From an uncultured Bacteroidales bacterium (lineage in GTDB: Bacteria > Bacteroidota > Bacteroidia > Bacteroidales > JAFGXI01): 38,232 bases of DNA. The stretch spans positions 1 through 38,232 of the forward strand of contig CAMZKE010000126.1 of the NCBI GenBank assembly GCA_947311115.1, read 5' to 3'. Both the position numbers and the translations under genes were made by a program. The notes under the pieces were generated by a model that had not been told where the DNA came from, made no database searches, and saw only the letters and a program-made list of their open reading frames with translations. Positions 3,246-5,245 of this stretch are shown here, in pieces. Within the stretch, counting starts at the first letter, position 1, and each line of letters opens with the position of its first letter.

Positions 3246-3638
3246 TTATTTTTCTAATTCTGAAGGTAAATATTCTTTGTTACCTATCATTATTTTATTA
3301 ATACCATTTTTTGAGAATAAGTATTCGTAATATTTCCAGTGATCAGCATATTTGTATAATTTAAGTTCTGCATTTCGTTCGTTATTTGCATTAAGCTCTG
3401 ATATTGTAAAGCTTTGAACACCTCTATAACTACTAATAGCTTTTTTTAGTTTAATAGCTTGACTTTCTGATTCTAAGCCGGAAATAATAAAATTGTAGTT
3501 TTTTTCAACTGTTTTATTTTGAAATTGATTTGTAAATTCTGATTTACTATCAAATTTAAAAATTACATTGTTATAGTTTTCTTGCGATATTGCTACAAAA
3601 GCTATAAATAATCCTACAAAAACTAATAAATTTTTCAT
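3246..3638 (-). CDS. Small secreted protein with possible heavy-metal-associated (ferredoxin-like) fold
   Basis: This 130-residue protein begins with a clear signal peptide (about residues 1-19, ending AISQ), so it is exported to the periplasm or beyond. The middle, about residues 48-80, has the rhythm of an HMA-type beta-alpha-beta unit: a strand, then SGL, a helix, then a GV followed by a strand. The metal-binding CxxC of true HMA domains is absent, so metal binding is not supported. The C-terminal 40 residues are rich in Tyr and Lys. It is the first gene of an apparent two-gene unit with the giant anchor-L protein 15 nt downstream, which suggests a joint role at the cell surface. No T9SS sorting domain is present. 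Function unknown; the HMA-like fold is an inference. Confidence 0.75.
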   Translation of the reverse strand: MKNLLVFVGLFIAFVAISQENYNNVIFKFDSKSEFTNQFQNKTVEKNYNFIISGLESESQAIKLKKAISSYRGVQSFTISELNANNERNAELKLYKYADHWKYYEYLFSKNGINKIMIGNKEYLPSELEK

Positions 3639-3785
3639 TTTTATTTTGTTTAGTTATGTGTTAACAAATTATAAGACAATTACTAACTACGTATAGTTGC
3701 CTGAGATTTACAATTTAAGAATAAAATAATAATTATTAAAATTTAATTATAGTTTTTATAATAACTATGTTATATATTATTGAAT

Positions 3786-4010
3786 TTACCCCGCATTATT
3801 TATACATTTTTCTTTTTCTTAGACAAGGCGTTGAGCCATGTTGCTGTATATGAATACTGCAAATGGTTTGCAACGAAGTATAAGGAAAATAAAATGTATA
3901 TCTGAAAAAAATAATTACCTAAATTTGGGTAATTTGTATTTTGCATTATCTGCTTGGTTTTAAGCAAATTAACTTCATTTTTATTAAATTACATGAATAA
4001 TGCGGGTTAA
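3786..4010. repeat. Nested inverted-repeat element in the 490-bp gene-free stretch (MITE-like or structured RNA)
   Basis: Outer arms at 3786-3800 and 3996-4010 are inverted copies matching at 14 of 15 positions (core CCCGCATTATT). Inside, 3801-3820 and 3882-3900 pair as TATACATTTT.../...AAAATGTATA with further matches. Inside that, CGTTG at 3829-3833 can pair with CAACG at 3870-3874, and 3858-3872 is a small hairpin, TGCAAA-TGG-TTTGCA. Two more hairpins lie in the right half: AATTACC/GGTAATT (3913-3919/3928-3934) and TGCTT/AAGCA (3951-3955/3962-3966). There is no open reading frame of note. The rest of 3639-4129 holds only AT-rich flanks and the 5' regions of the two divergent genes. The layout fits a small non-autonomous palindromic element or a structured RNA; which one cannot be decided from one copy. 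Confidence 0.6.
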
Positions 4011-4129
4011 GAGGGTATTTGTTTGTGCTTTAGTATGGTATGTTTTGTGATTACTTGTAGTGAAAAATAATTGCATTTTACAACAAATGTGAAAATATAT
4101 TATTTAAATTTGCATAAAATTAATTTATA

Positions 4130-5245
4130 ATGATTTTAAATAATAAGGATTACAAATATACAGATAAGGAAGTAGAGAAAATAGCAAATAAAGTATTTTC
4201 TAATATAAGAATTACTGAAGAAGATGGAATATATTTATTCAAAAATGCAGAACTTGGAATATTAGGTATTTTGGCTAATTATGTTCGTGAAAAAATTAAT
4301 GGTAATAATACATATTTTAATAGGAATTTTCATATTGAGCCAACAAATATATGTATTTACGATTGTGAGTTTTGTTCGTATAAAGCTAAAGTAAATGACC
4401 CTAATGGTTGGGATTACTCGGTTAGTCAGATGCTTGATATTGTAAAATCTTATGATGGCAAACCTGTTACTGAAGTTCATATTGTTGGTGGAGTGCATCC
4501 TAATAGAGATTTATTTTATTACGGTGAGTTATTGCAAAAAATAAAGAAACATAGACCAGATATTCATATAAAGGCATTTACCGCTGTTGAGCTTGATTTT
4601 ATGATTAGAAAAGCTAAGTTTGGTATTAATGAAGGCTTATTAAAATTGAAAGAATTTGGGTTAGACTCAATACCTGGTGGAGGAGCTGAAATATTCCATC
4701 CTGAAATAAGGAAGCATATTTGTGATACAAAAGCATCTACAAATCAGTGGCTTGATATACATGAGGCAGCACACAATAATGGTATTGCATCAAATGCAAC
4801 AATTTTATATGGTCATATAGAAAAATACGAACATAGAATACATCATTTAAATAAATTACGTGAACTACAAGACCGAACAAATGGTTTTAATACGTTTATA
4901 CCTTTAAAGTATAAAAAGGAAAATAATAGAATGTCGGAAATAAGAGAGGTTAATACTATTGAAGATTTAAAAAACTTTGCTGTTTCCAGAATATTTTTAG
5001 ATAATATACCCCACTTAAAAGCCTACTGGCCAATGTTGGGTCGTGATTTAACTCAATTGTCTCTTTCTTTTGGTGTTGATGATATTGATGGAACAATTGA
5101 TGATACAACAAAAATATATTCGATGGCAGGAGCTAAAGATAAGAAACCAAAAATGACTACACTTCAATTGGTAGAGCTAATTAAGAATGTAAAACGTATT
5201 CCTATAGAAAGAGATACCCTATACAATACAATTAAGAAATATTAA
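4130..5245 (+). CDS. mqnE: Aminofutalosine synthase MqnE (radical SAM)
   Basis: Radical SAM enzyme of the futalosine route to menaquinone. It joins 3-[(1-carboxyvinyl)oxy]benzoate and S-adenosylmethionine to give aminofutalosine in the cytosol. At 371 residues it has the family length. The [4Fe-4S] motif is CX3CX2C at Cys75, Cys79 and Cys82. The EVHIVGG strand, the GGGAEIF segment (about 183-190) and SNATILYGH (about 220-229) are typical of MqnE; the sister enzyme MqnC reads differently there. The ATG at 4130 follows an AT-rich leader with a TAAATTTG element at 4105-4112 that could be its -7 box, though no good TTG lies at the right distance. The universal stress protein gene starts 63 nt downstream. 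Other mqn genes are not in the window. Menaquinone is the usual respiratory quinone in this phylum, so the gene fits the setting. Confidence 0.93.
   Translation: MILNNKDYKYTDKEVEKIANKVFSNIRITEEDGIYLFKNAELGILGILANYVREKINGNNTYFNRNFHIEPTNICIYDCEFCSYKAKVNDPNGWDYSVSQMLDIVKSYDGKPVTEVHIVGGVHPNRDLFYYGELLQKIKKHRPDIHIKAFTAVELDFMIRKAKFGINEGLLKLKEFGLDSIPGGGAEIFHPEIRKHICDTKASTNQWLDIHEAAHNNGIASNATILYGHIEKYEHRIHHLNKLRELQDRTNGFNTFIPLKYKKENNRMSEIREVNTIEDLKNFAVSRIFLDNIPHLKAYWPMLGRDLTQLSLSFGVDDIDGTIDDTTKIYSMAGAKDKKPKMTTLQLVELIKNVKRIPIERDTLYNTIKKY

Follow-up and report, generated by a model that had tools for sequence, protein, structure and literature searches.

In this work, we analysed positions 3786-4010 of a 38,232-nucleotide window (i.e. 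the whole stretch of DNA under study) from an uncultured Bacteroidales bacterium. Very probably, this stretch is an IS1380-type MITE, i.e. a non-autonomous, non-coding transposable element with the ends of the IS1380 family; it is an ordinary repeat of known type and not a new functional RNA. It belongs to a multi-copy family with shared ends, TTAA-type targets and intergenic placement, in a host genome that carries IS1380-family transposase genes, and it is from the copies, the shared ends and these transposase genes that the assignment follows. The IS1380 transposase, presumably acting in trans, would cut at the 14-bp ends, and the excised element would then be pasted into AT-rich intergenic TTAA sites, a putative cut-and-paste movement; IS1380-family DDE insertion sequences have TTAA/TTAR as their insertion site. 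No description of an IS1380-derived MITE in Bacteroidota was recognised in the portions of the literature covered by our search.

Anatomy and genomic site of the element

Direct reading confirmed the 15-bp outer inverted repeat (14/15 positions) described in an earlier note on this DNA, formed by TTACCCCGCATTATT (3786-3800) and the reverse complement of 3996-4010 (TTAACCCGCATTATT). The long imperfect stem and short hairpins also claimed there were recovered in the minimum free-energy fold of 3780-4015, which consists of the outer stem, a long imperfect stem (approximately 3803-3900) and smaller hairpins. The folding energy was -62.7 kcal/mol vs -41.7 ± 4.0 kcal/mol in 200 shuffles, none of which was as low (z = -5.2). 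The same note was right that the stretch is non-coding and of no recognised RNA class: no ORF of at least 80 aa lies within 3786-4010, and no Rfam family reached its gathering score across the whole window. Including target copies, the window copy measures 225 bp, i.e. about 217 bp plus 4 bp on each side, and the family consensus reads TTAA-CCCGCATTATTCAT ... ATGAATAATGCGGG-TTAA, with 14-bp terminal inverted repeats (Table 1).

Table 1. Parts of the element in the window, with the basis of each assignment
Feature	Position	Strand	Basis and remarks
Left target-site copy	3786..3789		Degenerate TTAC (TTAA in most copies); aligned with other copies
Left terminal inverted repeat CCCGCATTATTTAT	3790..3803	+	Family consensus CCCGCATTATTCAT
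Long imperfect hairpin, T-rich arm against A-rich arm, with internal loops	3803..3902	+	Fold; helices 2 and 3
Core TACTGCAAATGGTTTGCAACGAAGTAT	3855..3881	+	84 places in the host genome and 0/197 relatives at ≤3 mismatches
Second hairpin, ACCCAAATTTGGGT-type palindrome	3913..3934	+	Fold and alignment; helix 4
Third hairpin, weak	3951..3966	+	Helix 6; 64.9 % of cells paired; poorly conserved among copies
Right terminal inverted repeat ATGAATAATGCGGG	3993..4006	+	Consensus and end-pattern searches
Right target-site copy TTAA	4007..4010		Read directly; target-pair test

The element lies between two divergent genes, i.e. a 130-aa minus-strand ORF upstream (3246-3638), matched by no NCBIfam model, and mqnE downstream, whose naming as flanking gene in the earlier note was borne out by TIGR03700 (451.7 bits, cut-off 434.55). 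Relatives of mqnE with 69-70 % identity were found in four genomes (G002-G005); in G001, which belongs to the same genus, there was no close relative (best match 33 % identity). We found no empty counterpart of the insertion site. A scan of 3600-4200 gave no terminator and 10 promoter-like sites vs 6.4 ± 2.8 in shuffles, and thus offers nothing to build on; we saw no sign of function for the element at this site.

Copies, target sites and distribution

The earlier note had named the lack of a second copy as counting against it, and copies proved abundant: the host genome (G000; 3.53 Mb in 163 contigs) holds at least 44 places that match the stretch (the window copy being one of them), with 40 of 301 first-look candidates scored. 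The core pattern was found at 54 + 30 = 84 places (≤3 mismatches), and the end pattern ATGAATAATGCGGGTTA gave 95 + 77 = 172 matches (≤2 mismatches) vs 0 + 2 for the reversed control; in such counts, copies split by contig ends may count twice. With a profile derived from 29 copies, 84 stretches of at least 60 bits were detected in 116 sequences, window included. Of 84 copies, 83 overlapped no ORF (≥80 aa, overlap >20 bp). Where genes were called on both sides (29 copies), the context was convergent in 13 cases, co-directional in nine and divergent in seven.

Many copies carry an additional left module of about 105 bp, beginning TTAACCCGGATTACAAGAC, which the window copy lacks and which has at least 40 matches in the host genome (119 candidates seen). 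In addition, there are short elements in which this module is combined with a right end (L058; L038 near 1777). Among 63 contig ends, picked for having a copy or module nearby, 43 lie inside a copy, so the family accounts for part of the fragmentation of the host assembly. At L022 (2280-2725), two copies stand in tandem with one common TTAA, an arrangement that would arise if one copy had used the other's target for its insertion. At L035 (1-120), a contig starts with two facing copies joined by a near-palindromic linker, either a genuine arrangement or a product of the assembly.

Target sites were compared on both sides of 32 full copies, eight of which were dropped (seven module-bearing copies without readable left end and one at a contig start). 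Identical 4-mers were found on both sides in 18 of the 24 readable copies, vs a permutation mean of 15.1 (p = 0.022). Most matching pairs are TTAA/TTAA, and only two of the eight other pairs match; for the MITE itself, target duplication is thus weakly shown. With its module taken into account, L030 has unequal target copies; neither L030 nor L027, which lies outside the set of full copies, is included as a matching pair. As for insertion sequence (IS) copies, TTAG stands on either side of L153, L154, L157 and L160 (Phaeodactylibacter), and TTAA flanks L155. Among the IS loci whose ends were extracted, the ten besides L153 are flanked by TTAA/TTAA, as is the element on host contig C143.

Beyond the host, the exact core was absent from the GTDB genome_contigs and viral_contigs sets, from which records near the host may be missing, and we found no copies in plasmids. 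Searching 60 relatives with the stretch returned matches of 21-36 bases only. The end pattern, at ≤1 mismatch, occurred in 20 of 149 genomes, host included, with the counts 38 in G070, 16 in G136 and 14 in G074. Elements with the same ends and other interiors were found in G074 (181 bp), G070 (172-213 bp) and G055 (171 bp), all of the same order as the host; these other-interior MITE families correspond to loci L173-L183 and L192. Since the same ends surround different interiors in these three genomes, parasitism looks recurrent. By eye, the G070 and G055 interiors seem similar around a CAAATTTG hairpin. Of eight genomes with these ends, only G047 has PF13701 above cut-off; a living parent is thus often absent from the assembly.

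IS1380-family elements and the shared ends

Two strong PF13701 matches were detected in the host genome, on contigs C143 and C48. The C143 transposase is intact (453 aa; NF033539, IS1380 family, 338.3 bits, cut-off 180), and its element (L065, 1546-3348) spans 1803 bp end to end, with an 18-bp perfect repeat, TTAACCTGAATTATGCAT, at its ends. The C48 element (L063, 3344-5046) is a decayed member of the IS1380 family with two in-frame stops, whose transposase fragment scores 205.8 bits with NF033539. One of its ends is formed by the 105-bp module (93 % over 112 bp), and the opposite end reads TTAACCCGAAAAATTCAT. The C143 element is a possible cross-mobiliser; as its ends differ from those of the MITE at 3/14 positions and the better-matching C48 element is decayed, no matched and intact mobiliser was seen.

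Relatives of the C48 transposase were retrieved at 33 loci in other genomes, mostly Bacteroidota. Ends were sought at 27 of these loci and in C143, and were extracted for 11 loci with recognised ends plus C143 and C48. IS1380-family insertion sequences carry, at their right end, the consensus 14 bp of the MITE left terminal repeat: among relatives about 1.6 kb long, L143, L148, L161 and L166 have a right end, TTAACCCGCATTATTCAT, identical to the MITE end at 18/18 positions, and L140 matches it at 17/18. Left ends of these relatives are mostly TTAACCCGAAAAATTCAT or near it, and the MITE therefore has the right-end sequence at both its ends. The likeness between MITE and IS hardly extends beyond the last 20 bp or so at the ends, and a single longer match, a weak one, was obtained (L161, E = 3.5e-4); the MITE interior was not found in any IS examined, and the core is absent from the IS relatives.

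An IS701- or IS4-type parent was also considered because of the YTAR-like targets, YTAR being the target preference of IS701, and was rejected, as the IS4-family element on contig C59 has unrelated ends. This IS4-family element (L066, 1-1387) has 19-bp ends that are 89 % complementary, and a 46-bp MITE fragment (1341-1387) lies directly beside it.

RNA structure, mobility and comparison with known systems

The earlier note had left the choice between a MITE or palindromic repeat and a structured RNA; the copies and core places reported above uphold the MITE, and the RNA is not supported by the covariation, mutation and orientation data. It is very improbable that each copy gives rise to a structured non-coding RNA, or to one of a family of RNAs, preserved because of its fold. 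Such an RNA would agree with the low folding energy, but palindromes are expected in MITEs. The alignment of 34 copies contains one clear covarying pair (columns 36-98: G-C in 13/34 rows, U-A in 11/34), which is nevertheless non-standard in 9/34 rows, and the RNAalifold covariation term was only -0.17 kcal/mol. When pairs of the window fold were counted over the alignment, one of five measures, the covariation score (reached by 5/500 shuffles), beat most shuffles, and so did the percentage paired (reached by 4/500); related sequences can exceed shuffles in this way without any structure. The compensatory changes beyond background for which the earlier note had proposed a covariance analysis did not appear, with 12 pairs changed on both sides vs a shuffled mean of 12.8, and further pair types numbered 53 vs 53.9 in shuffles. 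Private mutations affected 0.89 % of site-copies at paired and 1.02 % at unpaired positions; of the 74 that fall on paired sites, 54 disrupt the base pair. Orientation is inconsistent as well: compared with neighbouring genes that have their 3' end towards the element, the direction is the same in 29 cases and opposite in 36. We rejected a structured RNA on RNAalifold, pair counts set against shuffles and slides, private mutations and gene orientation, to which the lack of any Rfam match in the window adds; the case advises caution against taking folded intergenic repeats for RNA genes. Still more improbable is that the family consists of REP/BIME or similar palindromic extragenic repeats whose movement depends on a single-strand transposase of the RAYT/IS200 type: it is indeed intergenic, palindromic and multi-copy, but the element is too long, its terminal inverted repeats are identical to IS1380 ends and its targets are of TTAA type.

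Within the IS1380-type MITE, the inner hairpin core stands out by its conservation, shared diversity being 0.074 in the core (profile positions 61-118) vs 0.22-0.33 in the right half. Private mutations, which are mostly post-landing changes, occur in the core and right half at a rate ratio of 0.93 (95 % interval 0.67-1.30). As they are spread evenly across paired and unpaired sites and across core and right half, copies appear to decay neutrally once landed, so that whatever preserves the core acted on source elements. Low core diversity together with an even private rate fits a constraint limited to still-jumping copies, and we tentatively consider, as a reading with rather less than even chances, that the core is a cis-acting mobility signal, e.g. 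a structure or host-factor site for IS1380 trans-mobilisation. Recombination between source elements would also explain the core pattern, and the core is missing from the IS relatives.

The element resembles IS1380-family insertion sequences (NF033539 / PF13701) in its terminal repeat CCCGCATTATTCAT and its TTAA/TTAG target copies; it differs from them in having no transposase gene, in its length (217 bp vs about 1.6 kb) and in bearing the right-end sequence on both sides. Among Bacteroidota, it can be compared with MITECca01 of Cardinium, presented in the available part of its source as a non-coding, high-copy and mostly intergenic element of about 240 bp (PMC9769881). Both are alike in size, lack of coding capacity, high copy number, mostly intergenic position and ends common to an IS of the same genome, whereas the parent given there for MITECca01 is of the IS982 family (PMC9769881). 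In Anabaena sp. 90, Type II MITEs are likewise folded and mostly intergenic, and the genome also contains IS1380 elements; these MITEs were reported not to resemble evidently the ends of any IS found there (PMC3542288), unlike the element described here with its IS1380-type ends. Finally, IS1380 transposases are described, in the accessible part of a further source, as distantly related prokaryotic relatives of piggyBac (PMC10140906). Our element shares the TTAA target with eukaryotic piggyBac elements and their MITEs and differs from them in its bacterial host, and it provides a high-copy bacterial MITE family linked to IS1380, i.e. to bacterial relatives of piggyBac.
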